Assembly (NCBI GenBank): GCA_001247695.2
Contig: LGRX02033487.1
Coordinates: 43,555 to 107,554, forward strand
Direction: 5' to 3'
Source of the DNA: Cymbomonas tetramitiformis
Lineage: Eukaryota; Chlorophyta; Pyramimonadophyceae; Pyramimonadales; Pyramimonadaceae
Length of the DNA: 64,000 nucleotides
Shown here: positions 1 to 64,000 of the stretch, piece by piece
Numbering within the stretch: the first letter of the stretch is position 1
Layout of the letters: each line of letters starts with the position of its first letter
The notes under the pieces: model-generated
What the model saw: only the letters and a program-made list of their open reading frames with translations
Database searches by the model: none
What the model was told of the DNA's origin: nothing
Made by a program: the position numbers and the translations under genes

Positions 1-976
1 CTCGTCGTCGCGTTGCGTCGCTACGCGCATCGCGACGCTCGCATATTACGGCGAATTCACTTGCGGTCCATCTCGCGCACCGCCGGTCATTCCGGCATCG
101 CGCCCCCAAGCGACGCGTCCTCGAATCTTCGATTGCTAACGACGATCGAAGATTATGCCGATCGCTTGATCTTCGCGACGACGCGACGATTGAAGTCGTG
201 TATGTCCGCCGCGTTGCTGCATCCGAAATCCCCGGAGCGATCCCCGAATTTGACGTCGGCGATGAGATGGAGGTGAGTGAATCTAATACGCCCCGGCGAA
301 CCGAGGAAAATGCGCGACGTTTAAAAGACGATCGAGGCGCGTCGACGTCGCTGAGAGAACGCGCGTTGGTCGCCCGCGTTCAGGCAATGCAAGCTCGACG
401 CGTTAGCGCGATTGACGCGGAGCGGCCGCGGTCGCATTTTGATCTCCGAGGCGCGTTTGCTGTTATGCTCGCTCGAGTGCAGCTCGCCGACGATGGGTGA
501 GAGCATCGCGCATTGGCCGATTCTGGAGGTATGTATGTATGAGATTGCCTCCGCGGTTGCCGTCGTCGGGCGATCGCTGATGATGACACCGTCGCGCAGA
601 TGCTGGTGAACGAAACCCGCTCGAACGCGTTGCCGGGCGATCTGCGAGAGACTATGCAGCAAGATACCGAGCGCTATGTTGCAAAGTGTTTGAAAAAAAA
701 CAAGGTAAGAATTGTTTCGCAGATTTTTCGATCGCCTTTGCGTTCGCATGGGTTTAGATTCGTTCTACGCAGGATGATATTCGCTGTTTGGATTTGGCCT
801 ACTTTTTCGACGAATCGGAGAGACGTCGGAGTTCGTGCCCGTCGAAGACCGTCGTCAGCGCTGATGTCGATATCTTAGCGGCGGTGTTTTATATCGCCAA
901 GTTACCGGATCAAAATTATTTTCTCTACAATGCCACCGACCTTCCGAATCATACCACGAACCGCGACCTGATATGA
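1..976 (+). CDS. Unknown spliced gene, 5' end outside window
   Basis: I do not recognise this product. Four exons can be joined in phase 0: left edge to 272 (third frame), 394-528, 600-704 and 773-976, ending in TGA. Donors are GAG|GTGAGT at 273, GAG|GTATGT at 529 and AAG|GTAAGA at 705; acceptors end in CAAG, GCGCAG and TACGCAG. The last exon encodes an acidic stretch followed by a Tyr/Phe-rich tail, with no membrane segment or catalytic motif that I can name. An alternative acceptor at 383 would pair with the first frame of exon 1; I prefer the third frame because its codon use looks more natural. The stop lies 28 bases inside the convergent gene at 949-1947. Confidence 0.5.
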
Positions 977-1947
977 AGTGCCATTTTGATACATCTGCTG
1001 GCGTGCGTAAATCTATTTTTTTTGAAATGAAAGTGTTGCAAACAGTTGAGATTAGGAAGATAACGATTGAGATACCTGTCACGATCAATCATCTTACCCG
1101 TGCTATTCGTGTCGATACCGTCACGCATGATGTACAGCAACGCCAAAGAAAAGTATTCGTATTGTAACGTTTTGCTCAATTGAAAAACCGGCGATTGCAA
1201 CTGTCGGCGCACCGCCGGCTGTTGCAACAACTGCTGCACGTGTACGCATTGCAAGCATGTATGCCTCAACCGATCGGCGTTAAAATTCGGCGAACCGCAC
1301 ATCCAACCGTCGGTTCTTTGCAATTCGGTCATGTAAATGCTTTGTATTGTCGTGAGCACGATCGGAACTCCGCGTTTGGTGGCGGATTGCACGTATCGAA
1401 ACATACGTCGTTGGGCGATTTTTGTTTGACGATGAATGATTTTGCTCGACAATCGCTTACGCTCCGGTGACCATAGCAACATACTCACGACTCGTTTCGC
1501 CGCGGAATAACGACGTTCGTGTTCCTCCGTGGCCGACGCACTCGAAATCGCTCTGTCGCGAGTAGAGCTGCTCACGAATTTTGTTTCGTATCCCCGATTC
1601 GCGCTATTCCAGGGGTTGCCATCCGGGTACGCATCTCGGGAAAGACACACGTGCACCGCGACGCAAAGCCCGGTGAGTTCGCATACGAGGCCTTCGGTGC
1701 ACGCGACGGAACGCTGGCATTCATCACCGCAACGGTGATATTTTTTCGATTCCTCGCATCGATAGATCGCCGTGCCGACGCGAGTGAAAGTACACCGGTT
1801 TGTGCAACGATGCGCGACACCGCGGAGGGTGGTGTCGCCGATTGAAGTCTGAGCGACCTCCTTGTCCGCGATTTTGGTGCCGAGATTACGTAACGCGCTC
1901 CACGCGTTGTCGATTTCGCTTTCGTTTTGAGTCTTACTCCGTGGCAT
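949..1947 (-). CDS. Cys/His-rich putative zinc-binding protein
   Basis: An intact 332-residue reading frame. The N-terminal third holds an organised cluster of Cys and His (roughly residues 47-95): HRCTNRC, YRCEESKKYHRCGDEC and LVCELTGLC. The spacing looks like two small zinc-binding knuckles ahead of a basic, helical C-terminal half. This is visible in the sequence; a zinc role is inferred. Similar compact YxC...HxC...C...VCxLTG modules occur in uncharacterised proteins of large DNA viruses, but I cannot name a family. No intron is needed. The 3' end overlaps the preceding convergent gene by 28 bases. A TATA-like box at 1958-1972 sits just upstream and may serve both this gene and the one at 2028. 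Confidence 0.7.
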   Translation of the reverse strand: MPRSKTQNESEIDNAWSALRNLGTKIADKEVAQTSIGDTTLRGVAHRCTNRCTFTRVGTAIYRCEESKKYHRCGDECQRSVACTEGLVCELTGLCVAVHVCLSRDAYPDGNPWNSANRGYETKFVSSSTRDRAISSASATEEHERRYSAAKRVVSMLLWSPERKRLSSKIIHRQTKIAQRRMFRYVQSATKRGVPIVLTTIQSIYMTELQRTDGWMCGSPNFNADRLRHTCLQCVHVQQLLQQPAVRRQLQSPVFQLSKTLQYEYFSLALLYIMRDGIDTNSTGKMIDRDRYLNRYLPNLNCLQHFHFKKNRFTHASRCIKMALHIRSRFVV

Positions 1948-1957
1948 ATCGACGATG

Positions 1958-1972
1958 TGATATAATAATAAT
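1958..1972. promoter_or_regulatory. TATA-like element between divergent genes
   Basis: TGATATAATAATAAT lies between the start codons of the minus-strand gene (1947) and the plus-strand gene (2028). It matches the general arrangement of this window, where an AT-rich TATA-type box sits some 35-80 bases from the start codons of divergent genes. Direction of use is inferred. Confidence 0.45.
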
Positions 1973-2027: not shown

Positions 2028-2630
2028 ATGTCCGGATTCGCTTCCGCGGCGACGACGCGCGGCGCGCTTCGGTGCGCGGTGTGCGCGCTGAGTTGCCTCG
2101 GCTGCCTCCTACAAATGTACAATCTGTTCGCGCGCAAGCGTCGGGAGGCCGAGGCTCGGTCGGAGGAGGCTCGACTGCTCGCCGCGGCGATTTGCATCAA
2201 CGTTGATGGCACGGTGCGGGAATGGACGTCCACCGATTTGGTCGATTGCGGCAAAATCAGGAGCGTAATCACCAATGAAAACGCGTGGTTGGAGCTCTTC
2301 GAAGAAACTCTGAACGATTACGCGCGTTCGCAAGCGGAGTGCGTCGGCGCCGCGGCTCGACAAATCGCCGAGGGTACGCGACCGTATGTCACGTTAATTT
2401 CCCTCGTCGTCGTGATCGCGAGCTTGACGTTCGCTCTGCTGCTTCGTGTCACGGCGGATGTCGCGACGACTCGGGAAAAATCGTTCATGACGACGACGAC
2501 GCCTTCACCGATGCCGGCGACCGATCTCATCGACTCGATCGCGATTTTACCGTATCACCACGATCGGCGCCGTCGACCGCATCGGCGCGTGTCGCGCTCC
2601 TCGCATCCGCTCACCATCACAGACACGTAG
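2028..2630 (+). CDS. Small two-segment membrane protein
   Basis: Intronless frame of 200 residues. A Cys-rich hydrophobic segment covers about residues 12-34, then a charged helical region, and a second strong membrane segment (TLISLVVVIASLTFALLLRV) at about 122-141. The tail is Thr/Pro- and Arg/His-rich. No family is recognised. It may be an envelope or inner-membrane component; that is inference. The 3' end overlaps the last exon of the candidate capsid gene by 14 bases. Confidence 0.7.
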   Translation: MSGFASAATTRGALRCAVCALSCLGCLLQMYNLFARKRREAEARSEEARLLAAAICINVDGTVREWTSTDLVDCGKIRSVITNENAWLELFEETLNDYARSQAECVGAAARQIAEGTRPYVTLISLVVVIASLTFALLLRVTADVATTREKSFMTTTTPSPMPATDLIDSIAILPYHHDRRRRPHRRVSRSSHPLTITDT

Positions 2631-5600
2631 CGCTCGTCGGGCCTACCATCGAGGCGCCCCCTTTGCGAAGCGTGCTGTAGTTGACGGGCTCGAGATATTT
2701 ACTCAGACCCTTGCGCACTTTTCCGCATCCCGGGTACACGCGTTCTCCCCAATGTCCGGTGTTCAGACAGACTCGATCCAAATTTCCGGTGGCGGCGTTG
2801 TAACTCGCTTGATGCCCTGCGCGCACTCGCGAAATCCGAATCAATTCTAAAAGCGATCGGAGCGATGTACTACCGGCGACGGAAAGTGGTGTACCTTGAA
2901 AGCACATGGTATTGGGACCGGAGCGATAGTTATCGAAGTGCGACATGTCACGAGGCGGATCCTGCGAAAAGACATTCCGACTCTCCTCGTCATTTTTTCA
3001 TCAACGAATCGCCGAATCGATAACAAACGAGATCATTGACGAATCTCGCACCTCCGAAGGCGCCCAGGAGTAAAGTTCCGCGTATTGCGAAGCCGTCGAA
3101 TAATGTCGGGCTTTTATCGATGATAAACCGGTGTGGTCGGCGTAACAGCCGGTCACGTCGATCGGATTATCCTGCGCGCGTACGGCGCGGCCCCGCTTTT
3201 TAGCGATTTGGCAAATTCCGCTTTGCCAAAATAAGGTGTACAATCACGATCACGAGCGCTCTCACCTTAACGACCTCGTCGAGGCCGATGATGCACGCGT
3301 ATAACGACGGTACGCTTGCTCCGAATGTATTCGCGTTCGCGCCGGTGCCGGCGTCATTCGCGTGCCGAGCAAAGATGCTTCCGCCTGCGCGAATATCGTG
3401 GGAATTAATGAGCACCCCTCTTCTCTCTTTCCGTACCGACAACTTTTTTATTCGTGTTTGAAACGTCGTCGTAGTCACGTACCTCCGCCGAGGTATGCCT
3501 GGCACCATATATCCGCCACCGGCATGACATTCTTCGGGTTGTACACGACCGCTTTTTGGTAAATGGTAAAATTACCGTAGTGCATCTTACGAACGACGTC
3601 ATCGCTCAGTTGAAAGTCGTAATGTCCGATGAGGGTCTCTCCCGTCTCTTTTCCCGACTTCGTCAAAATCGCGGCGCACATCTGATACGTTTGATACGGA
3701 CGCATCAATAAGTAACCGAAGGGAAACATTTTGTTGCAATCGATGATCAATTCCAGCGTACGCCTGGAGAAATCCATGGTCACGAACATCACGAAAATCG
3801 CAAGCTCGTGCGGTCGCGCCACGAGGCGCTTCTCCGCATTTTGTACGCGGTCGGCGATCGTCTCGCTGCACGGCGCTTCGCTCGCCTCGGACTCGCCCCT
3901 CGCCACGAAGTTCGGAGTCCCCCTGCGCCGGTGGGATTGCATGAAAGACGCCCTACGGCCTCCGACACCGGAATCCTCCTCCTCCTCATCCATCCCGCGA
4001 GTGGCCACCTCGCTACCGCGAGTTCTCTGCAGCAAATGATCTCGAAAATCGTCGATCGATTCCGTCGTCAGCGTCGTCAGTATCGCCGAGTGGCGTGTGT
4101 GCATTTGAAGGATGTAATGATAGAAATAGCCCTTGTTCTCGTCGAACTCGGGCGCCGCGGGATGTAATCGATGAAATATATACCCATCGCTCTTCTTCCT
4201 CATTCCGCTCGGGGCTCGAAATGGCGTTCGTATAACGCTTGAGGATTTCCGACTGCTTGGGATGACATTTTCGCTTTTCTGCAATGGCGACTTTTCCGGC
4301 ATCAAAACGCGGAATCGCGATCCGTCCGAGATAAATACCTCTAGGTCCAACAAACTTTTGTCGGATTGCAGATGGATCGAATTCGTCGAGTGGACTTCCA
4401 AGAGTCCGAAAAAAGCGCGGTCTCTAAGAAGCTCACTTCATCATCCGTTTCCTCCATGCGCGGATGCAGCAACGGTCCCTCCGTATTTGCCGTCGAAGAT
4501 GAAGAATTGGCCATATCGCTCTTCAGTAGCGTCGTCTGGTACAACGCGCTCAATTTTGGAGCGCAAGCTAACAAAAGCCTACTCGCCGCTTCCGCGAACG
4601 GATGCGAGCGCGAGTTCCAGTTTTGCATATCTCCGGTGTTCAACTCGATGGCCGTAATCAAAATCGATTTTAAACAGTTGAGAGCGGAAACACAGTCCGA
4701 CGAATTGGTCAGAATATAGTCGATCGTGACGAGATATACCTGACATAAACCCCACCATATTTTGCTCGAGGATTCGCCACTCGCACTCGCCCATAATTTC
4801 GTCGAGACGCCGGCGGTATATCCATAGCCATCACACCACATTCGTTGCATTCGCATCCAAAGCTCGCCCAACCCCTTCACGTATTCCTCGAACGGTTTGC
4901 CGGTGGAATACACGTTGGAGCCGGCCACGGTATCGATCTGCGCCATCATTTCGTGTATCATCGTAAATGCCGGACAACGCTTGCGTATCTCATCGGCGTA
5001 CTGCGCGGAGTTGTGGTTCGTCCATGACCATGTTGAAGACGTGCGACCGTGAAACTCGACCTGGCACTCATCGGGTCGCAATTCAACGAGCTGATGAAGC
5101 AAATCGTCGGGCGCGATCTTGTACAAAGCGATGGCGTTGTCCATCGTTTTCTCATCGACCGCGCCGATATCGATGTGAATATTGCCGGTAGACTTATGAT
5201 TCAACACGCACGGTCCAAAAAACGAGTCTTTTATCTGGTGCAACGCGCTCGTCGAGAAAAGAGGTTGCGCTATTTGATGAAGAGTATCGTAGTTCCGAAC
5301 GAGATTCGCGCAAGCTTCGGGCTCGTAGATCGACTCTCCGCTTTCGGCCAAGCGGCGTACGCCGCGATAACTGTCGTAGCCGATGGGAGATCTCAAGATG
5401 ATACTCATACCGTCGCATAATGTTGTGCTCGACGCGCTCGGCCCGGACAGCGTGGCGTGCACGTTGAGCGCGGAAAAGGTCGCCACTTCGAGTAAAGCTT
5501 TCAGATTGGCGGAAACGTAACTGCCGGCTCCTTCGACGCACCACGTTGCCACGGCCGCGCTCACGGTGTCGAAGGAGGAGGAGGTACAGGAGATCGCCGC

Positions 5601-7935
5601 GTATGGAATTCGCTGTCGTTTGGAGCTTTCGCCCGTCGGTATTATCGCGCCGCTTTTATCGCAGATATCCTGTTTTTGCACCGTACGTCCCACGTCATCA
5701 TTATCATGACGTCGTCGTCACCTCTCAAAATACACGGGAGTTTCATCGATCAAAATTCGCGAGTTTTGAGGAGGTATTTGCTCGGAAAGGCCTCTCACCT
5801 CTCGTAGAAATTGTATATATTCCGAGATGAGATTCGAATCGTTCGTCGCCGACGGCTACACCCCGCAAAAGAAAGATCAGTCAGTCGATCGTTCGCTAGC
5901 GTTTAACGACGATTAAAAGATTCCGTCCAAATTTTCGGAACACCCGCAACTCACCTCCGCATGTTTCAGAATTTGCTTCAACAACGGACGCGTATGCAGT
6001 AACGCGTACATAATGGCCCGCGTCAAAATCGTGATCGACCTGTCGCACCATCGCGGCGGATCGGGTATGTGCTGCCCCCGATGAAGCGCGCTGTACGAGT
6101 TCATCAGCGCACTCGAATACCCGCAATCATTCTCGCCGGCGATGGACGCCTCGCCGTCGCGATGATGTGTGGCCTCCCACGTAATCGAGTGCGCAAACAT
6201 CCAAAGAGAATACGCGTTATCGGAATGCGCGTAGAAACTTTGAATTTCCGAGATATACTTCGTCGTATCCGGATAGAGAATGTAGCTCTGCATCGCGTTC
6301 AAAATTTTCTGGAATATAGACGTCTCCGTCGAATTCATCGGCGGCGTCGTCATGTTTTTGGCGACGTCCATAGCGCGAAGAACGGAGGGGATTTCACGAC
6401 CGAAGCAGCGAGAGAAACACGTCTGATCATCGGCGGTGAAGAAGGAGGACGCGAAGCGAATCGTTGTCGTAGAACTCAACGGTACGGCATGAGGATGGGA
6501 ATTGTTCACGTTGTTATCGGCGTCGTCGGTCTCGGGCAGATCGCCGAGCAATGCGCCATCGCCGGCGTCGTCGTCGTCAGCGTGGGCTCGAGATGTCCAT
6601 TGGTCGAACGGTGTATCGGGAGACACTCGCATATACGGTAGTTTTTTGCGTGACCACGCGGGTTTTCTCGTCTCTTCGTTGAAAAACGCATCGTTCAAGA
6701 GCGCATCGCGTAACGTGATTTCCACGAACGCGTCCACGTCCTGACGACGACGCCGACAATCCTCTCGGTTAGATCCGAGTGGCATTCACGCTTTTCGAGA
6801 CGGGCGCGAGCGAAACGGGAAGCGTCGCGTCTCTCACCTCATCGAAGATCGCAATGTTACGATGCGAAGAATCGTATTGCGTCGCTTGACCGTAGGTCTG
6901 TTCGGGCTGCATAAGAAAGAATTCTCCGATGGAGCGAACGCGACGGGTGACGTCGACGGGTTCTGTCAGATCGGGAAGTTCAAAGGCTTTGGCCTCGAAA
7001 ATTTTGCAATCGTTGCGGGCGTCGAGGGTGGTGTGCTCGCTCTGGCCGTTTCGAGCGGAATCGAAATTCTTCGGACCATCCGGGCCGGCGAGCGCGTAAA
7101 CGTAATTCTCCCTTCGCACCTGCGTGACGTACGGCTTCATACCCTCCGGCACGATCCACGTATCGGGCTGGACACCTTTGGCGCGGAGATAGCGTTTGCA
7201 ACGACTGTCGAGCAGATCCCAACCGTGCGGCGTTTTCTGAATGGTAGCCCAATCCTCCACTTCCATCATCAACGCTTTGCGCGCCAGGGTGGCGGTGCGG
7301 ATGTTTCCGCCGTACCGCTCGTTCCACATTTCGTCCACCGTTTTGCAATTCAAAAGCGCCTCGAGTACCCCGAGGTAAACGGTCTCCAGCACAGCATTCC
7401 TGATCTGTTGCAAATTCATGGTATAGCAGAGGCGCCCTTTCTCGGTGTTCATGAATCCGTGTTCGAGAATCATCGCCAATCCGTAGCGAACGTAATGATC
7501 TCGCCTCTCGCTCATCTGCTGGCTCACCAAACGACTCACCCCCTCTTCGGGTACCGGTCCCAGCAGGGTGTTGTTGAAATGATATTCGTTCCACTGTATA
7601 CTGGAGGTGTCTTGCGTTTCGCGATACGGCAATACTTGCGCGGGCCACATATGTTCCTGCGTGATGAGAGTTATCATGACGTTCGTCATGTACGGCGAGT
7701 AGCCGAGATAAGCTTCCGGCAGCGCGAAGTTTTCGCGCCCGTATTGATCGTACGGCGACATGAGATACGGTTTAGGATTATCGCCAAAAAAATTCGAGAA
7801 ATCGGCAGCCTGATAATTACCGGCCGAATCGCGAGGAGGATTTCCCGAACTCATCGGTCGCGCGCTCGTTCCATGGGCGGAATGAAGACCGCCCGTGTCC
7901 CCAGCGGTTTGCGGATATCTTGGATCCGTCGACAT
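2617..7935 (-). CDS. Candidate major capsid protein (HK97-fold type), eight exons
   Basis: Joined in phase this gives about 1,537 residues. Exons on the minus strand, 5' to 3': 7935-6838, 6740-5955, 5855-5799, 5669-4437, 4338-3483, 3384-3266, 3171-3052 and 2961-2617. Donors are GAG|GTGAG in most cases, GAA|GTGAGC at 4436 (weakest) and GGAG|GTACGT at 3482. I chose the Met at 7935 because a TATA box at 7983-7996 would lie inside the longer frame. The capsid call rests on length close to herpesvirus capsid proteins, lack of enzyme motifs, the terminase and portal-like gene in the same window, and a C-terminal region (exon 5 into 6) with FPFGYLLMRPYQTYQM and GHYDFQLSDDVVRKMHYG, which I associate with mirusvirus-type capsid proteins. 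I cannot run a structure prediction, so the assignment is an inference. Confidence 0.6.
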
Positions 7936-7982
7936 TTGAACAGCGTGAACTGCGTTAGATGAATAAGGATGCGTTTCGAGCG

Positions 7983-7996
7983 TGTATATATATACA
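7983..7996. promoter_or_regulatory. Perfectly palindromic TATA box, bidirectional
   Basis: TGTATATATATACA is its own reverse complement. It lies 48 bases from the chosen capsid start (7935, minus) and 47 bases from the plus-strand start at 8043, so the same box can serve both directions. Confidence 0.65.
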
Positions 7997-8042
7997 GGTC
8001 GATCTCTCATTTACTCTGCGGTATTCCATTGATAATGAAAAT

Positions 8043-8675
8043 ATGAATTTCGAAACAAATTTCTCCGCTGTCTTGAATAACACCGGGATTTTAATTGTCG
8101 CTCCGATGATGATGCTAGCCGCGACCGTAACGATCTTCGCGATCCTACCGTATCACGCGGCGACGCGTCCTCGTGGAGATCGCCGCCGATCGCCGCGCGC
8201 GAAACGCCACCCTCCCTCTCGATCTCCGTCGCCGTCATCGGAATCCGACGTCGACCTCGAGATGCGTAGAAATATGGAAACGTCGTGCCGCCAACGGCGA
8301 TTTCGCGTACCCGCGACCCCTTTGGGGCATTCAAACGACCGCGGATCCTGGTGTCCGTCCTCACTGTCGCGCGTCAAAGTCGTCGATCGCGTGCGTCATC
8401 GTCGTTTTTTTGACGAAGTGTCGCACCAATCGATCCGCGCTGAGATCGAGATCGCTCATGATGTTCAAATGCGTCGCGCGCGGCAGGACGTGGAAAGCCG
8501 ATATCAGACCGTCATTCCACCGACCCGATCCGTGGCGTGTCTCGAAATGGGCGCAGCTCACCAGCAGCGCGTCACGCCAGTCGAAAAGCTCGTCGCGACC
8601 GCCGTGAATGATGCACATCGCAACATCGCGACGAAGCCGCCGCGCGTATCGTACGTTGTGCATCGGAAACAGTAG
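8043..8675 (+). CDS. Small single-pass membrane protein
   Basis: The frame opens at an ATG about 47 bases after the palindromic TATA box. A short polar N terminus is followed by a membrane segment rich in Ala, Ile, Met and Val (about residues 15-37), then an Arg/Ser/Pro-rich tail. The open frame continues to 8675, where it runs antisense across the 3' part of the hydrolase gene (8361 onward). Codon use in that overlap looks like a shadow frame, so the true C terminus may be earlier or reached by a splice that I could not place. Function unknown. Confidence 0.5.
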   Translation: MNFETNFSAVLNNTGILIVAPMMMLAATVTIFAILPYHAATRPRGDRRRSPRAKRHPPSRSPSPSSESDVDLEMRRNMETSCRQRRFRVPATPLGHSNDRGSWCPSSLSRVKVVDRVRHRRFFDEVSHQSIRAEIEIAHDVQMRRARQDVESRYQTVIPPTRSVACLEMGAAHQQRVTPVEKLVATAVNDAHRNIATKPPRVSYVVHRKQ

Positions 8676-9631
8676 GTAATCGGAAACGGCATCCAAAATC
8701 AGATTGGAAATCGCGCGAGGTAAACGATTCATGGACACCAAACCGCGCGCGGCGGTGGCGAACGGTGAAATCAACACAACTCCGGCGAATTGCGGCGGCG
8801 GCTTCGTGACGATCGAACCGCGCAATAACACCGCCGATCCTAGCGAGTATCCCATCGCGATGACGCGCCGTTTCGGAAACGCCTGCTCACGACGGCGGGT
8901 TTCAGATGCTTCGGATATTATTATCGGCGTATAACTCAACCGCGTCAACACCGAAGCGTTAATAAAATTCGGCGCACCTCGGTCAGAATTCGCAGCATAT
9001 GCGCGAAACGAATCGCTATTCGCTCGAACCGAGGTTCGCGACCGCGCTCGCGCTCATCGCCGGGAGCGCCGTAACCGGACCACGCGAAGGAGACGTAATG
9101 CGCTCGTACGCGTCGGGTGACGAAAGATACGACGGCGTCGCAGCCTACAAAGTAAAGTGAAGTAAAATGAAATTTTAGCGGGGTTCACGGTTGCGCAAAG
9201 TAAAGTGAAGTGTCGGCCCAAAAGATCACGGAGCGCGTACCTCCGACCGATTCCGCGTTTCCGTGACAATACAGAATGATCGGTCGCGTATCCACGGTGT
9301 CGGCGAGATCGATAGGATTACGATTTCGACGAGAAGCGAGTCCGTGTTCAAGATGAACTCCTTCCGCCTCCTCATCGCCGTCGCCGCCGGCGAAACGCAG
9401 GACTCCCAAAAATGAATCTTCGATGGCTCCTTTGTACGGATAATCGAGCCGCTTCCGCGTGAAGAAGGTGGTCAGTCCGCGCGCATGATATTCGCGTAAT
9501 CGAATGGCACGCGTGGCGTTGTTCGGTGGAAGAAGTGGCGGTCGCGGTCGAGGCGGGTGAAATAAAATTCCGGTGAGCGCGCGTTCCCATCCTAATCCGG
9601 CGTAAAAATATCGCTCGATAAATTCAATCAT
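8361..9631 (-). CDS. Alpha/beta hydrolase, ABHD17/BEM46-like, three exons
   Basis: Exons 9631-9241, 9144-8978 and 8882-8361 join to 359 residues. Visible landmarks, in order: an oxyanion-region strand LYCHGN in exon 1, SGYGAPGD in exon 2, the nucleophile elbow GYSLGS in exon 3, a strand and loop with VLISPFA, then the acid loop IIHGGRDE and a late His. This order and spacing match the ABHD17/ABHD13/BEM46 group of serine hydrolases, which includes protein depalmitoylases. The putative triad is Ser in GYSLGS, Asp in GGRDE and His near the C terminus (TH before LNIMSD). Substrate is unknown; a lipid or acyl-protein is a reasonable inference. The gene shares a TATA box at 9672-9679 with the divergent portal-like gene. 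Confidence 0.85.
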
Positions 9632-9717: not shown

Positions 9718-11261
9718 ATGCCGATGAATCTCGACGAAGATTGCGAAACGGAGAAGAGTGCGATCATCGATGTCCATCGCGTGAGCGCTTTGAAAAAATT
9801 GCGAGAGCGAAATTCTACGATTCATGCGTGCGCGATCGCTACGCGGCAAGCGGTGCTGGGCGGAAACGGCGATATCGCGTTTTGCGGCATATCGGCGGCG
9901 GATACGTCTCGGAATCCCACATTCGCTGAGCATGTGCGCGTCAAGTATGCCAAGTTTTTGAATGACGCGATCGAGCAGCTGTTGCTGCAAGGTGTGTCAA
10001 AGCTTTGAGCGAAGGTGAGAGGTGAAATACCCGTCGGATACGCTCGTATGTTTACATCGTTGCAGATCGCAGGTTTCGTGGTGTACGAGATCGTACCCGC
10101 CGACGCGAAAAAGGGCTTGTTATATCCGCTACCCAAAACGGTCGATTGCGGCAAGGAATATTGCTATCGTATAGATCGGGACGACCCGGAAGAGGTGAGA
10201 ATGCGGCGGTGCGCAATCATCATTGATGTATTATCGATAAGAATTGTCACACCTCGACGAATTTGGTGCGCAGGTCGTGTACGTCGAAGACACGCGGCCT
10301 CAGACGATATGGCCAACGACGACGGACTGCGATCAAGCACAAACGAGGCGCGTCACGTACTGCGCTATCCTCGATTCGCCGAACGGCGTCACCGGTGAAT
10401 TGCGAAGCTGTCTGAACGCGGTGTACGCGACGTGCGCGATCGCGGAGAGCTTGTTACGTTCCGCGATCATCTCCGATCGTATACGGAGCTGCCCGCCGGT
10501 GCTCACTCGCGTCAAAACCGACGCCGCGTTCGACGATCGCGAATTGACCTCTCTGAATTCCGTCAGCGATGTGCGAAGCGTGCTCGCCTTCGAGAATATG
10601 GCGTTGCGCAACGAGATCGACGCCGCGACGCATCGGGCTTTGAACGACAGCAACAAAGCGCAATACCAGCATACCGGCCACGCCGCGATCGACGACCGTC
10701 TCGCGCAGACGAGCGATCCCATGCGAAACTCCAATTTTGTACCGACCGTCATTCCTCTGCCGGTGGATGCCGAGGTGAGCAAGTGAAAACGTGAACGTTT
10801 CGTTTCGGGCTCACGCACACACACACCCACTCTCTCTCTCTCCTTCTTGCTCTCTCTCTATTGAACGATTCGCCTCGCGCGCTTCCGCGCAGGTGGCGAC
10901 GTATCCGTTACCGGCGACGCGATCGGACCTCACGGGGTTCCAGCGACACGCCGAGCGTGAGATCGCGCATGTTTTTGGTATGCAAGATGATCGAATATCG
11001 CCGACGAATATCGGTCCGTTTCGTCGCGACGAGATCCGACGTCTGTTATCCGCGGTCTGCAAGAACGTGTGGCGGCAATCCCCACCCGAATTCGGCGAGC
11101 GATTTCCAACCACGAGCGTCGACGCGGTTCGGTTCGAATTTCCGTTGTCCGTACATGCGGCGGCACCGGGGCCGCCTCCCGTCGACGCGGTCGCGGCGGA
11201 TCGGTACGAGTCGAAAAAAAGAATGCGGCACGAGGATACTATCACTTCAATTAGACTTTAA
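9718..11261 (+). CDS. Portal-like protein, four exons
   Basis: Exons 9718-9991, 10073-10194, 10274-10774 and 10893-11261 join in phase to 421 residues. The early part has RNSTIHACAIATRQAVLGG, then a helix ending in the exon 1/2 junction (AIEQLLLQG followed by FVVYEIVP), then a beta-rich stretch, a long helical region and HAEREIAHVFGMQDD near the start of exon 4. This order resembles the wing, stem and crown layout of phage and herpesvirus-type portal proteins. No catalytic motif is present. The portal call is an inference from pattern and from the nearby terminase and capsid genes. Intron 3 (10775-10892) has a long pyrimidine tract of ACAC and CTCT runs before its acceptor. Confidence 0.4.
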
Positions 11262-14311: not shown

Positions 14312-14325
14312 GGCGATTTCTCTCT

Positions 14326-31016: not shown

Positions 31017-31260
31017 GACGAGAGAATTGGGTACGCAGGATGCTGGATTCGCGATATATCAGATATGGACGGTGAGATGTTAGCGCTTCAAGATTGGGGA
31101 TGCATGGTGGTGCTGGAGCGTGTGATTTTCTTGGCGACGCGTGTCGCGAAACGCCGATCGCGAAACGTTGAGTCGATATCCTTCGCTTAAAAGCGTTTCG
31201 CGGTATAGAAACGACGGCATTGTAATCGGCATCCCAAACGACACGCGAAGTTGCGCGATT

Positions 31261-38152: not shown

Positions 38153-38371
38153 TCCGAAATCTTTCGCCGTTGGCGTTCGCGGCGATTTCGACGCGAAGGT
38201 CTTCGATATCTACTAGCAGATCGCCATCTCGTCGATGTCGCACTCGATATAAATTCAGCGGCGAACCTTCCGCGGGAGTCAACGTCGCTCGCATTTTCGA
38301 TAGCGGCGACCAAAGTAACTGCGAGGACGAGCCGCGCTTAGCGTGTATTCACTCGAACGATACCATCATCA

Positions 38372-52253: not shown

Positions 52254-52267
52254 TATTCAAGTGGTCG

Positions 52268-55802: not shown

Positions 55803-58800
55803 ATGGATCCGGCGATGCGGGTCGCGGCGTGCGTATTCCCGTTGGATCGGCGCGCGTATCGCGAAGAGTTTACGCAATTGCTGAAAGAGGTTCGCGAATC
55901 GACGACGAACGGGACGAATCTCGGTGAGGTTATCGGTCGAGACCTGCGATTAGCGGGCTACGCGTGCGGAGAGCGCTCCCGCCGCGTGTGGAGTACGAGC
56001 GCGATCGGTCGCACGAGTGGATTGAAAGAGGTCAAGCGATGCGAGCGAAATTTTCGATCTTCGTGGATCGCCAACAACATCGATTGCGTCAAACGACAAC
56101 TTCATAGCGTCGATCCCCGGAATTCGAATGAGATGCACTACGCCGAGTTCGTGTACTTGCTGCGCGAATACACGACGAAGCGGTTGACGTGTTCACCCCG
56201 CGACGCGCTGCCCGTCAACGCGGCCAAAAATTCGACGGACGCGTTTCATCAGGCGGTCGCGCTCACCGCCTTCGAAGTGTGCGTGCTACGGCAGGTGCCG
56301 TTGGCGAGATGCACGGAGCTGAATGAGATTTTGATGCGCTGCGTGGAAGCGCTGACCGGCGTGCATCGGTCGGAGATGAGCAAATTGATTTCCTCCAGCG
56401 CGGTGGGAGCGTCGTCGCCGTCTCCCGCCGTTTCCATGTTCACGACGTGGTCAGAAGTTACGGAGCGGCCGTTTTTCGGTGATGGCGGCGAGCATTGGCT
56501 CACGGCGACGCATCGATTTCTGTGGAAGGATTATCATGAGGTCATCGACGGCGTGGCCGATGTGCAGGGTCTTCGTATGGCCACTCTGATCTCGGAGGGG
56601 CGCGCCGCTTGGTGGAAACCGAAGCGGAGTGATATGGTGGCGTGCGCGGAGACGATGCAAACGGGAGGCGCGGGATCGGATCTCGCGACGCGGCTCGCGG
56701 CGGACAACGAGGCGGGCGCGTGCGGATGTTATTACCTTCCGTTCCGCGTGGCCCGCGTCGGATGCTATCGCGATCACGGCGAATATCAAGACGAGGTACG
56801 CGCGCTTCGCGAGCGAGTTCGGGAGCATATACGCGTGGGTGAGGAACTTTCGCGACGGTTGGCGCGGGGAGCGGAGGCGACGCTGCGCATGGTCGCCCAG
56901 CGTCTGCCGATGAATGGCGACTCCAAGATGGCTTCGCATACGCGGGAGATCGAGTTGTACGCGTGCTGCTTGCACAGCGTCATGGGCTGCGCGTGCATCC
57001 GAGAGCCGGCGATCTCGGGCGTCGCCGCGCGCAAGATTCGCGACGTGACCGGCAGCGCCGAGTTCGCCGCTTTGGTTCAGACGCTGCAGATGATGTCCAC
57101 TCGTTGGATTCGGACGGGCGAGGCGGATCATCCCGTCACGCGCGCCCTGCGGAGCGTCCGCGAGCATTTCGCGCTTCGGGGAGTGTCGCTGTCGCTGTCG
57201 ACGGACGGCGCGAAAGATTCACCGACGCCGTCGTCGGAACGACGCGGATGTCGCTCGACCGCGTTGCGAATGCTGGAAAATCATTTGACAGCCACGGAGG
57301 CGCAAACGATCTCCGCTTTCGTGACCGACGCCGCGGATGGCGCCGCGACCGTTTCGATGCCATCGCCGCGCGCGCCGGCGGAGAACGAGCGTCGCTGGAC
57401 ATTCGAAGAGCAGCTGATGAGGTGAGTTGAGATGCGCGGAGATCGTTTCTTGCGAACGACGGGTGCCGACGGGACGGGGTTTGCGCGCGCAGAGAGATGG
57501 CGCGTCATCGAATCCGCGACACCGCCGCCGGGAACGTGATGATGCACGGCTTGTACGACGAGAAAACTTTCAGTCCGTTGATGGCGTTACCGGCGCGCGC
57601 TTACACGATGGACGCGAGAAATCGGGACGCGAGCGAACCGGAGTCCGAGGGTCGGACGGGTTCCGCGACGACCGACTCGGTGACGCAGCTGCGTCGCGAG
57701 CTCGCCGGAGGTACCGAGTGGCTGATTCCGTGCGGGATGGATCGCTTGTGTCGTCGGCGCTATCGCCCCATTCCCATTCCGTGCGACGGTAGCGCCTTCG
57801 CGGAGGCGTTTTTCGGGCGCGGCGCTCCGAAATCGGCGGAGGAAGCGGCGCGTCGCGCGAGTTTGGTCTTTCGACTTCGAGCTCCCGTTGCTTCGGAGAC
57901 GCTGTCGACACGGGTGGGTTTGCTGGTACCCGAGTTGCGCTTACCGGCGCCGCTGCGGTTGATGCGCAGCTTGCGACGCTATTTGGATTTGCGAGGTCGG
58001 TGGCTCGACGTGCCTCGCCATCTCTCGTCGGAGCGAGCTCGGACGCGCGGCTCTCGCGGCGAGCGCGAGGCGTCCGAGGAGCTACGCGAATGTGATGATG
58101 ACATTCATCCATTCCTGATCTTTCCCGACGAGTTTCGCGTGTCGTTCAACGTGCGCGAACTGTCGCGCAGCAACTGCATCGATATACGTCGCGGCTTGCA
58201 CGAGAACAGCTCCGATGTCACCTACGCGCGATTTCGCCTCGACGCGGTGTCGACCGTCGGTGATGTGACGACGGAGAATGCTCTCGAAGAGTGCGCGGCG
58301 CCATATCGGCACGCGCGTTCGGCTTGCGGCCGATTTCTGCATGTGTATACGCGATCGGAACAATCGCCCTTTTTTTTGCGTTCGCTCGAAGCGTGCGCCG
58401 CCTTGAAGGGTCGCTTGATCGAGACGTCGCGTGTCGCGGGAACCACGGACGCGCGCTTGAACGAATTCTGCCCCGGCGCGGTTCTCGATATTTCGGAGTT
58501 GGGCGCGTTCGCTTACCACTGCTTCGGTGAATTGATTTTCGCTCTGAGCCGCGACCCCGACCCGCGCGCGCCTTGGCATGCTTTGACGAACCCTCGGAAT
58601 CTGCCATCGATATCGACGGCGCGACGAGCGGCGCTCTGCGCCGCCGATCCCGATGTTCGTCGATTTTACATGTGGGTGACCGTGGAGCTGCAGCGCCTGC
58701 TGCTGTTGCTCAACTCGCAAGAATTGCGCGCCCGCGTCATCGGCGCCGGCTTGACGTTCGCGGTCCCGAAGGCGACGCGTCATACCAACGTCGATTCCGA

Positions 58801-61766
58801 TGAGGAGGGCGAGGGGTTCTCGTCGTCGTCGTTGTCATCGTCACCCTACGAATATCTCACCACGCTTTCGACATCGAGCGACGCCGCGGCGAGTGACGAT
58901 GGAAAGCGTCAAATCGGCGGCCGAGACGAGCAACGCGCCGCCTTCGAGGTGAGTTCGCACCGACTTCGAGGTGTCACTCAAACTCAAACTCAAACTTAAA
59001 CCGGGTCGGGATGGGGGGGGATTCGAGGGCGGCGCAGGATACGCGGCGTAAATCGAAGGCACCCGCGAAGAGCGGACGCTCCAAACCTATTTTGAATCAA
59101 GCGGCGAAAGTGATGGCCATCATGAACAATCTGGGCATCACGCATTTTCCTTATTGCGAAGATGTGAGAGCTTCCTCCCGACCTCCCGAGCCTCCTCATG
59201 ACCGACTGTTTTTCAATGTGTCATTCGCTGATCTGATTTTCCGAGCGTACGCGCGCTTCCGCGGCAGGTGTATCGCGCGAACGGATGCAGATCTCACGCG
59301 GGCTATATGAAAGCTCCCGGTTATCACGCGATCCGGCATCCGTATGTCGCGAGGGCTTTCGTCGACGGTCGCGGCGAATGTCTCGGAAGCGCTCCTTTGT
59401 GGTTCGCCTCGATTTTGATGCGCAAAGACGAGAAGAACGTGCTCACCGAAGAAATGCTCGGGAAAATCGGCTACGACCGCATCGACTTCGCCGCCGATGC
59501 GGACTCGCGATCGTTTCGCTTGATGAACACCTGCGATTATTTACGCGCGGGCGTTTCTTTTTGCACGAGCGGAGGTGCGTATGCCGCAACCCTCCGACGT
59601 CTGTTTTAATTTCACGTTTCGCGCGATGCATCGCTGATCCGTTGTCGTCGTCATTCGGTGCCAGGTCGAAGATGCTTCGCGTCGCTCCCTTCGTCGAGCG
59701 GCGCGGAAATAAAATCGGAGAGACCTCCGTCGATTGGCGGTATTGGTGGCGGTGGCGGCGGCGTCGGTGAATCGGCGACGCCCGCGGAAAAAATGGCGGC
59801 TCTCGTCGCGAAAGTGTCGTTGCGCGACGAATGTTTTATGTCGCGTGTCGCGGAGGATCGATACAGCGTGCAAGCGTGCGGCGTTCCGGACGCGCAGATG
59901 TCGCAATCTCGAGCGGCGCAACGAGGAACGCGGTTCGTTTTTACGGATGTGGTCGAAAACGGACGGTGCCATCCTCGCGTATGCTTGGGGGATGCGCACC
60001 GTCGCGAGTGTTTGGGGTTCGGACGAATGCGCGAACATGACGAATTCATGCTCGACGCGTCGGTCGCGACGGCGGACTCGAGGCGAGGCGCGCGACCGCG
60101 AATCGTTCTGTTTCCGAACGTTTCCGCGACGATTCCTTCGACCGGAGACGTCGCGCGCGACGAGCTTCCGACCCGATTGATATTATCATCTTCGTCGTCG
60201 GACCCGATCTGCGACGCCACCGTCGACGCCGACGTCGCCGAGGAGGAGGGCTTCAAGCGAAAGGTCTCCGAAAGTCCGAAAGAACCAAAGGTCCGCGATC
60301 CCCAAAAATCAAAATGACTCATTGACTGAATGACGACGACGTTGCCGCTGACGACGGACGGGTTGCCGCCGGTCGGCGCAGGTCACGTACGCGCGCGCGG
60401 TTGACGCGCTCGGAGTGGAAGGTCATTCGCTCAAAATTCGAAACCGAGTGGACATTGACGCGAACGAGGAGAAGACCGCCGTCGTACCCGAGGCGGTGTC
60501 GTTGGCGGCCGCTCGCTGGAGAAGCGCCGCTTTCTCGGAGGATGGAAATGTATCCGAGCGCGCGCTCTGCGCGGAGTTGCTGCTGCGCTATCAGACGGAC
60601 TGCGCGCGCACGATCGCGGAAAATCTTCGATTGCTCGGTTTGGACCTGATGGCCATTCGCGACATTCGCAACGCGGTACGCCGCGATTTTTTTGCGATTC
60701 TTGCGAGGTCGAAAGAAAGCCGCGAATATTACAGCGGGAGTATTAAAGAGGAATACCAGCGAGAGGTATTAAAAATCCCCGGTGTTTTTTGGCAGGAGAT
60801 ACTCCGCGAATTGTCCGCGCTGGAAGAGCAAACGCGAGCGCTGGTCGATGAGATACGGTCGCTCTCCTCTCGCGATGACCGGGTACGCGATGATCGGGGT
60901 TTTAGGATTCATCGACAAGTTCGATGCGATGAGAGACGCTGACAAAGACGTGCGGCGATGCGCAGGATCACGATGATTCCCACGCTCTGCGCGTCTTCGC
61001 CGAATGGCTGCATCGCGAGACGACCGCGTTTCGCGACACTCGCTCTCGTCGCGAGTGGTGCTTCGGAAATCATTCGGCGATCCGCGCGTGGATCGGAGTC
61101 GCGCTCAACGCGACGGTGGCGTGGTTGCTGCTACGCACTTCGCCGGACGACACTCTCCGCACTCGAACGATTTGCGCGATCGCGCGCAAACTGGATGAGT
61201 ACCCGGATCACATCGAAGAGCTCGCTGCGAAAACGATCACCGACGAGGTGCGAAGCGTGATGTCGTTGACACAACAGTGTCCATCGCGTACTGTTCATTC
61301 GCGTTGACGACGGGGTTCGCTTGACGCTTTGTAGGAAATGGAGGTTCTACGGACGTGGTGCCGTTGCGAGAGGGTGTGTAATATTCGCTTCGATGCGTAC
61401 AACACGGATCCGGAATGCTTTTACAACACGTCGATCACGAAAACGCCTTTGGCGGATCACACCACCACCGCGAATCGCGTTTACGGAGATGCGACGAAGA
61501 GATGCACGCGCCAGGATATACGAACCATCGCCGCGCGTTGCGCCGGAACTTCGGCCTCGTATTTCACGCGAAGGCGATCGGAAAAGTCGTCGTCGCTTCG
61601 AATCGTCTGGTTGAATGTGTGCATCCGTCGAGTACCTCGATCCGCAACGACCGAGAGCGATGATATTCAAGGTGCCGCGGCGAGTCTGCCCGACGCGGAC
61701 GACGATACGATGATGATGGATCACTTCTCGCGAGATTGGTATCGTAATGAGGTGAGACTCCGCGAG

Positions 61767-61798
<32 letters not shown>

Positions 61799-62523
61799 CG
61801 ACGCTTTTCGCCTCTTTTCAACTTCTCACGGTCTCGTCTTTATGTTCGTGATGATGGGAGTAGGTATACTACCGTATCGTGTACGAAAGCCTCATCGACG
61901 AAATCTCTCGTCCGGGTGATAAACGACCGCGATGCGCCGCGCAAGAGCAATTCGGAGGCCGATTCGCGTTGGGAATGGTGGCGTCGGTCGCGTTCTCCGT
62001 GGAAAACGCCGGTATCGCGACGACGTGGAGTGACGCGAACGCGGTTCGTTTGCTCGCGGGCGGCATGTGGCGATGCTCGTTCGACGCGACGGTGACGAAA
62101 GAGAATCACGACGTGCTCGCCGCGCAATTGCTGTCGCCGACACCGACACCGACGTCGACGCCGACGGCGAACGAGATCGATAGCGACCGGACACCTCAGA
62201 GCGCGCCGCGCGTTTTCGCGCTGCTGACGTTACGCTACGCGGATGGACACCCGCTCAGCACCAAGAAAAAACCGTTTCGGTTCTGGCTAGACCCGGCCGT
62301 GATTTCTCACGCGACCGCCGAAGCTCGCCGCGCCAATTCGGATGATCTTCGATTACCGATCATCTTTCGCGGGCAATTGCTGACGAATGAGAAGCGCCGC
62401 GTCAGTATTAAAGACGGAGGGGCGTGCGCGATCAGATGCTCGCGGGCCGGTCGGGTCGAAGGTGTGCGTGTCTCTTTGGCTGTCGACGAACTCGAACGGG
62501 ATGTTCACGTCGACGACCTATGA
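55803..62523 (+). CDS. Nine-exon gene for a protein of about 2,000 residues, unknown
   Basis: Exons 55803-57421, 57493-58948, 59038-59163, 59268-59574, 59665-60290, 60382-60882, 60966-61247, 61335-61751 and 61864-62523 give about 1,997 residues. Eight joins keep phase (2, 0, 0, 1, 0, 0, 0, 0). The donor of exon 5 is weak: GTCCGC at 60291, or GTCTCC at 60264, both in phase. The protein has no enzyme motif I can name. It has Cys-rich patches (CGCYYLPF, CCLHSVMGCACI), an acidic Ser tail in exon 2 and a beta-rich last exon (VFALLTLRYADGHPL). Size and position near capsid-like genes suggest a large virion or tegument-type protein; it is also an alternative candidate for a capsid component. Confidence 0.6.
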
Positions 62524-62596
62524 TTCCATCATCATACAGTACTCATTACGAACGAACGAACCTACGTTGTATGCGCTCACCGGTATTAATATTGGA

Positions 62597-63949
62597 ATGT
62601 CACGAATTCGCGAGCACACGATGTTTGGCGAGAATTCGCGAATCGTTTGGAGAAAAAGCGCGATAGTCGCGGCCGCGACGACGCTAAATTACGCGAGCGT
62701 ATTCGCCGGTCGTCGTGTCGAGTGCGACGATAACGAGCAGTCCAACGATCGCAGTTGGCGTGTCGAATTTCGCACGGCATGCGATTCGAAACGTTCGATC
62801 AATTTTTTGATCGACACATCCTTATTTGTGGTGAATGGCGCGTGTCAACTATTTTGGCCCTGTTGCATCGACTCGACGCAAATCAGATTACGCGTCAGGG
62901 TGTGCATCTGCGTGATCGTGTCCGTGGGATGGTTATCGATATGGCGCGAAACGAGTTTCACGTGGTACACGTTCGCCATCACGCGCGCCGCGATCACGGG
63001 CGCGTGCGCCTCGCTGTATCCATCGATCATCGCGAGCGTCACATTCATGACATCCGATGCGCAAAAGCGGAGACGGGACCATGCTCGCTTCTGGACGCGC
63101 GTGAGCTCGTTGTACCTGTTATACAGCCCCCTGTCTCTGCTCGCGATGAGCGTCATTTCGCCGTGGGTGCGGCAACCCGCGTGGCGAGTCTTGTACACCG
63201 CGATCGTGATATGCGCTCTCGCGGCGTTGAGCTGCTACCAATTCTTCACACCCGGCGTCGTCACTTCCACCGCGAACCGAGATCGCGACCGGCGGGCCGA
63301 GTCGGAATTGGCGCCGGGTGGTGCGGCCTCCGATGAAACAAACGCGAGGTCGCGGCGCGCGCGTATACGATTGTGGTACATGTTCGTGGGGCATTGCGTA
63401 ACTTTACCTAAAGCGTACCTTTCATTACAAACGTCGAGCGTGTTGAAAGATCGGCCGTATCTTTCGTTTTTGATCATTCAGAGTGGCGTGGTCATCTCCA
63501 AAAGATTTTTACTCGAGCGAATACCCGATACCGTACGCGCGGCGGCCGGGGTTCAGTTTGCATCCGCCGGTATATTCGGAATCTTGATTATTCTGGCACT
63601 CGTGCAGCGCGTCGAAAGTTCACCCGCGATTCGATGGTTGAACTTGATATTGGTCGCGATCATTTATTGCGCGTTGGGACTCGTCTACAACATCCACCTG
63701 TATCGTTGCTGCCGCGCTTACACCCGCGATCCCGACATGACGATCGTCGCGGTGTCTAGCACCACCACATCCGCATCATGGGCATCCGCGATAAGTCCGG
63801 CGTTACAGGCCCTGGGCGAGCGGCAACCGGAAAGCGCTTTGGCGATTTGCGGTGCGCATTGTCTAGCGGCGGGCATCGCGTTTTGCCTGGAATATTCGCA
63901 AGTATCCTCCGTCGAGCGCCGGACGCGGCAAGTCTTGCCAAAATTGTGA
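62597..63949 (+). CDS. Polytopic membrane protein, about 450 residues
   Basis: From the Met at 62597 the frame codes for roughly eight or nine hydrophobic segments, among them LFVVNGACQLFWPCC, VCICVIVSVGWLSIW, YLLYSPLSLLAMSVIS, LYTAIVICALAALSCY, GIFGILIILALV and LNLILVAIIYCALGLVY, with a long polar loop of Arg/Glu/Ala around the middle. No transporter signature is recognised. The topology resembles receptor- or transporter-like proteins. The gene begins 73 bases after the stop of the giant gene. Confidence 0.6.
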   Translation: MSRIREHTMFGENSRIVWRKSAIVAAATTLNYASVFAGRRVECDDNEQSNDRSWRVEFRTACDSKRSINFLIDTSLFVVNGACQLFWPCCIDSTQIRLRVRVCICVIVSVGWLSIWRETSFTWYTFAITRAAITGACASLYPSIIASVTFMTSDAQKRRRDHARFWTRVSSLYLLYSPLSLLAMSVISPWVRQPAWRVLYTAIVICALAALSCYQFFTPGVVTSTANRDRDRRAESELAPGGAASDETNARSRRARIRLWYMFVGHCVTLPKAYLSLQTSSVLKDRPYLSFLIIQSGVVISKRFLLERIPDTVRAAAGVQFASAGIFGILIILALVQRVESSPAIRWLNLILVAIIYCALGLVYNIHLYRCCRAYTRDPDMTIVAVSSTTTSASWASAISPALQALGERQPESALAICGAHCLAAGIAFCLEYSQVSSVERRTRQVLPKL

Positions 63950-64000
63950 TTTCAAACCTACGAGTAGTATAGATACCGCAAGGATCGCGAAGATGAAAGC

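Follow-up and report, generated by a model that had tools for sequence, protein, structure and literature searches.

A 64,000-nucleotide stretch of DNA from the green alga Cymbomonas tetramitiformis (contig LGRX02033487.1, positions 43,555 to 107,554; the whole of it is called the window below) was analysed for its genes and for the short introns that interrupt them. Judged from its sequence, the window is part of a heliorhodopsin-bearing CHeCME, one of the endogenous mirusvirus relatives of Cymbomonas, in the genome data of this alga, where the element is probably integrated or resident. We consider it about 80% probable that this CHeCME carries some fifty short GT-AG introns that are spliced by the host and are most likely viral, with a terminase that is probably trans-spliced. 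By sequence and homology together, the introns themselves are real.

Intron inventory

Introns were called with a two-strand gene model that combined codon usage, stop avoidance and freely fitted donor and acceptor weights. From a flat-weight start the model settled at the donor GAG/GTGAG and the acceptor GCGCAG/G (the slash marks the splice site) and gave 54 introns in the window, and a lenient version gave 69, with scores of at least 4 in 49 and at least 2.5 in 59. The supported set comprises 51 introns, namely the 49 scoring at least 4 and two weaker-scoring ones confirmed by homology; they lie in 17 gene models, an approximate gene count as neighbouring genes are fused in some of them. Homology confirmed 20 of the 51 joins, with scores from 2.7 upward, and the other 31 are called by the model only. 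The figure of about 57 introns given in a preliminary description of this DNA is a fair estimate, and its statement that lengths cluster at 60-120 bases holds for 49 of the 51 (range 68-158 nucleotides (nt), median 93). Intron length was no multiple of three in 34 cases, and three introns are in frame and stop-free. The boundaries share one consensus: GAG or AAG stands upstream in 43 of 51 introns (background 2%), G at +5 in 46 (25%), CAG at the intron end in 47 (20%) and G directly after the intron in 40 (18%). The resulting density, approximately 0.8 introns per kb (51 in 64 kb), lies above that of most double-stranded DNA (dsDNA) viruses, as had been claimed.

Joining open reading frames (ORFs) is by itself weak evidence, since decoy dinucleotide pairs bridge frames too; the case depends on the motif and on the homologues. 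In two-fold held-out scoring GT-AG ranked first of 256 dinucleotide pairs, with a gain of 210.9 against 178.3 for the next pair and a median of 109.1; it gave 39 held-out introns, where decoy pairs had a median of 29 and a maximum of 45. An in-sample likelihood test of 256 pairs, in which GT-AG came only fourth, was overfitted and was replaced by this scoring. The decoys CT-AC, GA-TG, TG-GA, CG-GC and GC-AG yielded 30-47 introns in the window, but their gain was lower and their motifs were weaker, and TG-GA in part recovered the same donors one base on. By the same procedure the reversed window gave one intron against 48 in the window, and two pools of related viral contigs (each trimmed to 64 kb, with loci L006, L010 and L011 left out) gave 14 and 8 without a canonical consensus. 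Run singly, loci L001-L009 gave 0.05-0.25 introns per kb. Recurrence of the donors GTGAG, GTACG and GTGCG and the acceptor CGCAG, to which the preliminary description had pointed, is not striking as raw counts, which are alike on both strands. The full donor motif occurred 19 times in sense and twice in antisense orientation (p 0.0002, strands taken from an intron-free ORF model), and the five control motifs that occurred had no significant strand bias; a sixth was absent.

The probable capsid gene

The probable HK97-type major capsid protein gene is given below with its predicted introns.

2617..8010, minus strand: probable HK97-type major capsid protein gene; nine exons, eight predicted introns; candidate ATG codons at 8010 and 7761
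6741..6837, minus strand: intron, confirmed; five of six aligned homologues gapless across the join, the sixth ending earlier; crossed in 9 of 11 loci
5856..5954, minus strand: intron in the tower-like insert; model only, score 6.0
5670..5798, minus strand: intron in the tower-like insert; model only, score 5.8
4279..4436, minus strand: intron joining two homologous halves; model only, score 4.9
3385..3482, minus strand: intron, confirmed; crossed in L001-L010 (10 of 11 loci), L011 having no match there
3172..3265, minus strand: intron, confirmed; crossed in 10 of 11 loci
2962..3051, minus strand: intron, confirmed; crossed in 10 of 11 loci
2817..2894, minus strand: intron of 78 nt, in frame and stop-free, confirmed; L001-L009 uninterrupted (9 of 11 loci)

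The protein of the first large exon is 71%, 79% and 80% identical to the Cymbomonas proteins P0001, P0003 and P0007, and 62% identical to the EukProt protein P0002. Single-sequence scans of viral contigs with the TBP, ERCC4 and capsid-exon sequences found no relatives, and relatives were found when the contigs were scanned with a capsid alignment; the comparison covers all 11 loci, L001-L011. Over the last four joins and as far as the end of the protein, matches in L001-L009 are uninterrupted; at 6741..6837 the matches in L004 and L006 stop short of the join. Five of the eight introns are absent from intronless relatives. The three unconfirmed joins are located within or next to an inserted stretch of about 850 residues that has no homologues. 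We take the protein to be the probable capsid from the descriptions in PMC10675990 and PMC12768974, and from L004, in which a terminase ORF lies close to that of the capsid homologue on one contig. The insert itself (6740-3732, minus strand) is absent in most relatives, measures about 560 residues in L010 and is reminiscent of a tower domain.

L010 has an intron of its own in this gene, a 125-nt GT-AG intron at 13525-13649 that the gene model called independently. It splits VFQ/GHQ where the window intron at 2817-2894 splits CFQ/GHQ, the same residue boundary; the L010 intron is in phase 0 and the window intron in phase 1, so that the two lie within one nucleotide of each other, and L001-L009 lack an intron there. 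The two proteins are 35-62% identical in this region. The near-match concerns one intron of eight and could reflect chance or a shared proto-splice site. When L010 was used as a positive control, ten introns were called in it (0.47 per kb); they show no clear consensus, and only 13525-13649 has support from homology. The L010 gene (10001-13820) resembles mirusvirus capsid genes; its 109-kb environmental contig is labelled as an Opitutaceae MAG (GC 0.60) and is probably misbinned. The reading of this gene is also broken at 10118-10239, where some 120 nt with many CGACCTCGACG repeats intervene and no clean AG acceptor is present.

Joins shared with sister copies

Two further genes could be compared with other copies from Cymbomonas.

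9718..11261, plus strand: portal-like gene; four exons
9992..10072, plus strand: intron, confirmed; colinear with P0028 and P0029
10195..10273, plus strand: intron, confirmed; P0028 without insert, position probably shared with a sister copy
10775..10892, plus strand: intron, confirmed; colinear with P0028 and P0029
38067..40819, minus strand: seven-intron gene; same locus as CYMTET_49153
40185..40270, minus strand: intron, confirmed by P0030, P0031, P0032 and P0033
39731..39827, minus strand: intron, confirmed by P0030, P0031, P0032 and P0033
39554..39627, minus strand: intron, confirmed by P0030, P0032 and P0033
39362..39473, minus strand: intron, confirmed by P0030, P0032 and P0033
39015..39112, minus strand: intron, confirmed by P0030 and P0032
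38887..38977, minus strand: intron, confirmed by P0030, with P0032 within one residue
38319..38425, minus strand: intron, confirmed by P0030, P0031 and P0033

The spliced portal-like protein, which had no Pfam or PHROGs match, is 81% and 78% identical to the Cymbomonas proteins P0028 and P0029 over 98% of its length. These two are 81% identical to each other, so the window protein is about as far from the two copies as they are from one another, and the genome data contain a family of diverged copies. P0029 has a 25-amino-acid insert exactly at the join of 10195..10273, which reads as a retained in-frame intron. The name portal is presumed from the listing of portal genes for these elements in PMC10675990.

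The seven-intron gene agrees with the EukProt protein P0030 at all seven joins (98% identity over 100%). The NCBI model of the locus, P0031 (CYMTET_49153), is 100% identical over 48% in its best stretch; it matches introns 1, 2 and 7 completely and has one long jump in place of introns 3-6. P0032 and P0033 represent a diverged copy (72-73% identity) that shares the joins: P0032 is one residue off at intron 6 and keeps 33 residues at intron 7 (38319..38425), read here as a retained in-frame intron, and P0033 jumps over the fifth and sixth. From its identity we infer that P0030 also comes from Cymbomonas. Its differences from the window protein are all clustered around residues 40-77, in the first exon, which suggests either a second allele or copy that has the remainder in common or a recombinant assembly.

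Domains completed by splicing

In four genes with recognisable domains, joins fall within the domain.

8361..9631, minus strand: alpha/beta hydrolase gene; three exons
9145..9240, minus strand: hydrolase intron, confirmed by the domain
8883..8977, minus strand: hydrolase intron, confirmed by the domain
32080..33008, plus strand: TATA-binding protein (TBP) gene; PF00352 E 2.9e-38, 35 PDB sequences matched; 3' end of the model uncertain
32558..32638, plus strand: TBP intron of 81 nt, in frame and stop-free, confirmed by PDB alignments
32851..32948, plus strand: TBP intron; model only, score 13.1
36016..37336, plus strand: ATP-grasp-like protein gene (DUF6815)
36964..37039, plus strand: ATP-grasp intron, confirmed by the domain; join at residue 316 inside DUF6815 at 268-369
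46040..47014, plus strand: DEDD 3'-5' exonuclease gene (TREX1-like); RNase_T match
46583..46675, plus strand: exonuclease intron separating the Exo III region, confirmed by the domain

The spliced hydrolase matches Hydrolase_4 with 42.2 bits at residues 115-252 (profile 3-134), and the joins at residues 130 and 186 lie inside this match; the last-exon ORF alone reaches 24.0 bits (71-132) and the first exon alone gives none. The preliminary description had claimed that splicing completes TBP repeat 2, the Exo III motif, the metal site of the ATP-grasp protein, two kinase lobes and an Ulp1 helix. For TBP this is borne out, as the best unspliced stretch halts at residue 165, inside repeat 2, in 30 of the 35 PDB matches and removal of the 81 nt extends the matches to about residue 184 with more bits (1tgh from 95.6 to 109.8). 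The RNase_T match of the exonuclease likewise lengthens from 1-133 (27.0 bits) to 1-163 of 164 (40.2 bits), and at E up to 0.001 the spliced exonuclease has 11 PDB matches and the unspliced ORF none. As for the ATP-grasp protein, DUF6815 is seen in the spliced form only (E 2.5e-08, positions 2-105 of 105), the unspliced ORF giving no match at E up to 0.1. The putative kinase fared worse: no Pfam or PDB kinase match was obtained, its intron at 49351-49460 falls just under the score cut, and an identification through PDB was dropped as the two matches (E 0.1 and 0.48) are not kinases. No Ulp1 match turned up in the window scans, none of which was aimed at Ulp1. The preliminary description had also named homologues that encode the intervening stretches as a possible refutation; homologues of the capsid, portal-like, seven-intron and TBP proteins lack the inserts at the confirmed joins, apart from the two read as retained introns.

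The terminase

15361..16062, plus strand: terminase large subunit, N-terminal ATPase part; Walker A TPRRWGKT, phrog_7579 E 8.2e-05

This N-terminal part is of the Duplodnaviria type of terminase large subunit. The gene halts before Walker B, where the homologous ORFs of L004, which is full-length, and L001 continue, and its end is overlapped by an ORF on the other strand (16034-17056). Compared with each other, the terminases of L004 and L001 are 47-48% identical in their C-terminal halves. In the 64-kb window nothing convincing corresponds to this half (best E 0.24 among the matches listed), and a scan of the window for Walker B and nuclease (DPNGG-type) motifs returned only one glycine-rich chance match. 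ATPase and nuclease parts are trans-spliced in most mirusviruses outside two orders (PMC12768974; this paper, PMC10675990 and PMC5741210 are cited here from parts of their texts). From its sequence, the terminase of the window is a candidate for trans-splicing, which would probably supply the missing part from a distant piece; a truncated gene, or a second half lying beyond the window, may fit equally.

Assignment to the mirusviruses of Cymbomonas

Near-identity of 38067-40819 to CYMTET_49153 assigns the window to C. tetramitiformis, a pyramimonadophyte green alga. An intronless heliorhodopsin ORF (22857..23825, minus strand; PF18761, E 7.7e-21) and an intact intronless ORF with an N-terminal match to the Herpes UL92 family (949-1947, minus strand; PF03048, E 2.1e-06) accompany FHA and ERCC4 domains in window ORFs, and a weak RING finger (zf-C3HC4) and TFIIB ribbons lie below their cut-offs. 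With TBP, the terminase and the capsid homologues, these genes set the window with the mirusviruses. TBP, heliorhodopsin and RING finger are given as core mirusvirus functions (PMC12768974), and the window has the first two, the RING finger appearing only below its cut-off. Traits of the intron-rich mirusviruses are likewise present, with numerous canonical GT-AG introns and with introns in virion genes (eight predicted in the probable capsid gene and three in the portal-like gene). CHeCMEs were described as endogenous mirusvirus relatives with heliorhodopsin, portal, hydrolase, exonuclease, TBP and HK97 capsid (Gyaltshen et al., 2023; PMC10675990); heliorhodopsin was found on 51 Cymbomonas scaffolds, and host-like coverage was reported for the bulk of scaffolds with viral genes (PMC10675990). 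Of the viral genome segment in the preliminary description, the segment of a eukaryotic dsDNA virus stands, and the window is probably an integrated or resident element in algal genome data. Scans of the window for tRNA and Rfam families found nothing, nor did a tblastn search of phages with an 841-amino-acid ORF.

Mechanism and origin of the introns

If the genes are transcribed, their mRNA would be made by host RNA polymerase II in the nucleus, the host major spliceosome would cut at the donor and acceptor sites given above, and the terminase mRNA would be completed by trans-splicing of a distant piece. The introns are most likely those of the viral lineage: like mirusvirus introns, and unlike the host mean, they are short, sister copies share their sites, and one lies next to the L010 intron. 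Mirusvirus intron lengths peak near 80 nt (PMC12768974). Nuclear replication and full dependence on the spliceosome, as put forward in the preliminary description, hold in so far as these introns need a spliceosome; replication and full dependence go further than that, and nuclear reproduction had already been predicted (PMC12768974).

An origin after integration, with introns gained through decay or domestication and saying nothing about how the virus reproduces, appears unlikely to us, even though the sequence sits in algal genome data, relatives without these introns exist, and introns in endogenous nucleocytoviruses have been seen as a sign of decay and endogenisation (PMC12768974). Sister copies that differ by 19-28% in protein share joins, so the joins are older than that divergence; the intron lengths are unlike the host mean; and 5 of the 20 confirmed introns fall in the probable capsid gene, the type of gene in which mirusvirus introns concentrate (PMC12768974). 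The position of one capsid intron, no more than a nucleotide away from an intron of the environmental L010, shifts weight further towards introns carried by the virus and away from gain after integration. The spliced genes are also open, a weak point as the model forces openness. Equally improbable, in our estimate, is that the Cymbomonas culture contained the element as a replicating, non-integrated virus or episome. No host gene was recognised among the scanned window ORFs and an intron-dense episomal mirusvirus is known in one isolate (PMC12768974), but the host-like coverage of the bulk of viral-gene scaffolds, heliorhodopsin being on 51 (PMC10675990), and the several diverged copies within the same genome data argue against it. 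We give very little credence to the idea that the interruptions stem from frameshifts introduced by sequencing, from pseudogene damage or from protein inserts specific to a lineage: decoy dinucleotide pairs do bridge frames by chance and the three in-frame, stop-free introns are possible protein inserts, yet the boundaries follow a single canonical consensus, 49 of 51 measure 60-120 nt, 34 of 51 are no multiple of three, the donor motif has a strand bias of 19 to 2, and the inserts are absent from homologues.

Several points weigh against a host-spliced CHeCME with viral introns and a trans-spliced terminase. Expression, nuclear splicing, viral intron origin and trans-splicing are all read from DNA and protein sequence, and the public gene models are predictions, although their pipelines used Cymbomonas transcriptomes. 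Most viral elements of Cymbomonas were judged transcriptionally silent, and the heliorhodopsin genes and their neighbours were described as apparently lacking introns (PMC10675990); the window heliorhodopsin is intronless too, yet many genes farther off carry introns. Profile searches name neither the capsid nor the portal-like protein. The other seven capsid introns have no shared position that was seen in L010, and acceptor motifs had no significant strand bias (7 versus 3, 24 versus 16). The host intron mean of 296.9 nt is a mean over conserved genes only (Burns 2015; PMC5741210). Intron length was limited to 160-170 nt in the gene model; with the limit raised to 400 or 800 nt, 45 or 44 introns scored at least 4, with 41 or 37 under 120 nt, and among those of greater length at least two take in an exon next to confirmed introns.

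A wider reading is that the Cymbomonas elements represent an intron-saturated lineage of green-algal mirusviruses with virus-carried introns, at least one of them predating the split from the environmental relative, and a trans-spliced terminase. We hold this only tentatively, at somewhat less than even odds. If true, the host nucleus would be needed at many steps of capsid formation, and a culturable alga would offer a resident copy for study.

Comparison with known systems

The kind of element is already known: mirusviruses rich in GT-AG introns have been published, with trans-spliced terminases and a reproduction predicted to be nuclear (Medvedeva et al. 2025; PMC12768974), and the window is among the dense examples. 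Intron-rich mirusviruses (Okeanovirales, Styxvirales, Soporavirales) have, like the window, TBP, heliorhodopsin and short GT-AG introns; their HK97-type virion gene set, the introns in their virion genes and the split terminase that is a hallmark of trans-splicing (PMC12768974) have probable counterparts in the window. Their published densities are 0.025-0.65 per kb, with 0.65 from one episome (PMC12768974), and single genomes may be denser; the value of about 0.8 lies above 0.65, the highest published value found in the text cited. The window further differs in having introns across many genes, not in virion genes alone. No long gene-carrying intron was found in it, though the gene model barely allows one.

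CHeCMEs share with the window the organism, heliorhodopsin, hydrolase, exonuclease, TBP and, as probable counterparts, the HK97-type capsid and the portal (PMC10675990), and a Cymbomonas protein comes from the same locus. No packaging ATPase was identified in the CHeCME paper, as far as its cited text goes, whereas the window has the ATPase part of a terminase. The Aurantiochytrium mirusvirus episome (Collier 2023, Chung 2025, as cited in PMC12768974) is likewise resident in a protist and has a very high intron density; it belongs to another host lineage and is reported to produce particles in the nucleus. Pandoraviruses and a few chloroviruses are also dsDNA viruses of protists that use host splicing, as exceptions among nucleocytoviruses (PMC12768974).

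Capsid and gene set of these last two groups differ from those of the window. No title on CHeCME introns was found in the literature on Cymbomonas, mirusviruses and introns, as far as titles and partial texts go. New here are the eight predicted capsid introns, the near-shared position in L010, the apparent intron retention in sister-copy models and the cut terminase. Little-studied published algal elements are thereby identified as intron-rich mirusviruses, which adds to the published remarks on intronless heliorhodopsin neighbourhoods and on the absence of a packaging ATPase. A culturable green alga becomes available for asking whether mirusvirus introns are a viral property or a gain after integration, for which the shared and apparently retained introns of the sister copies and the near-shared L010 intron offer a direct test. 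Such genes can be broken up or wrongly joined in gene models that are built on ORFs or made with default settings, and capsid and terminase can be hidden in this way.

Remaining introns and neighbouring genes

The other introns called by the model only are given with their scores.

273..383, plus strand: intron, score 9.2
529..599, plus strand: intron, score 5.4
705..772, plus strand: intron, score 7.6
11614..11704, minus strand: intron, score 8.8
14428..14539, minus strand: intron, hydrophobic protein gene, score 7.1
13755..13838, minus strand: intron, score 8.4
13572..13675, minus strand: intron, score 7.9
17301..17376, plus strand: doubtful intron, score 4.2
24321..24398, plus strand: intron, score 11.1
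25151..25245, plus strand: intron, score 7.1
27216..27311, minus strand: intron, LRR gene, score 8.5
26531..26609, minus strand: intron, LRR gene, score 9.9
28692..28786, plus strand: intron, score 9.9
30958..31038, plus strand: intron, score 9.0
31462..31537, plus strand: intron, score 5.8
41177..41256, plus strand: intron, score 10.3
45628..45726, minus strand: intron, TFIIB-ribbon gene, score 5.3
44893..44987, minus strand: intron, TFIIB-ribbon gene, score 10.4
44433..44527, minus strand: intron, TFIIB-ribbon gene, score 7.8
52749..52841, minus strand: intron, in frame and stop-free, score 5.4
57422..57492, plus strand: intron, long multi-exon gene, score 11.7
58949..59037, plus strand: intron, score 8.8
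59164..59267, plus strand: intron, score 6.0
59575..59664, plus strand: intron, score 7.3
60291..60381, plus strand: intron, score 7.0
61248..61334, plus strand: intron, score 5.9
61752..61863, plus strand: intron, score 6.8

A branch-point consensus was sought in the introns, where CT repeats dominate and no clear motif emerged. Introners were considered and not called: five intron pairs match with the low-complexity filter off, two of the five at E <1e-5 over 20-49 nt, one of these two pairs including a visibly CT-rich intron. The model at 53740-63949 (plus strand) has 3065 amino acids and seven well-scored introns and is probably two genes fused at about 55.6-55.8 kb. At 13482-15292 (minus strand) lies a hydrophobic protein of 472 amino acids, apparently a multi-pass membrane protein, with three to four introns and without a Pfam match. 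An ORF at 33038-33931 (minus strand) resembles DNA cytosine methyltransferases (phrog_757, E 2.9e-12; Pfam DNA_methylase only 0.031), and the intronless ORF at 18850-21288 (minus strand) carries a short collagen-like GAP repeat and has weak matches to tail fibres.

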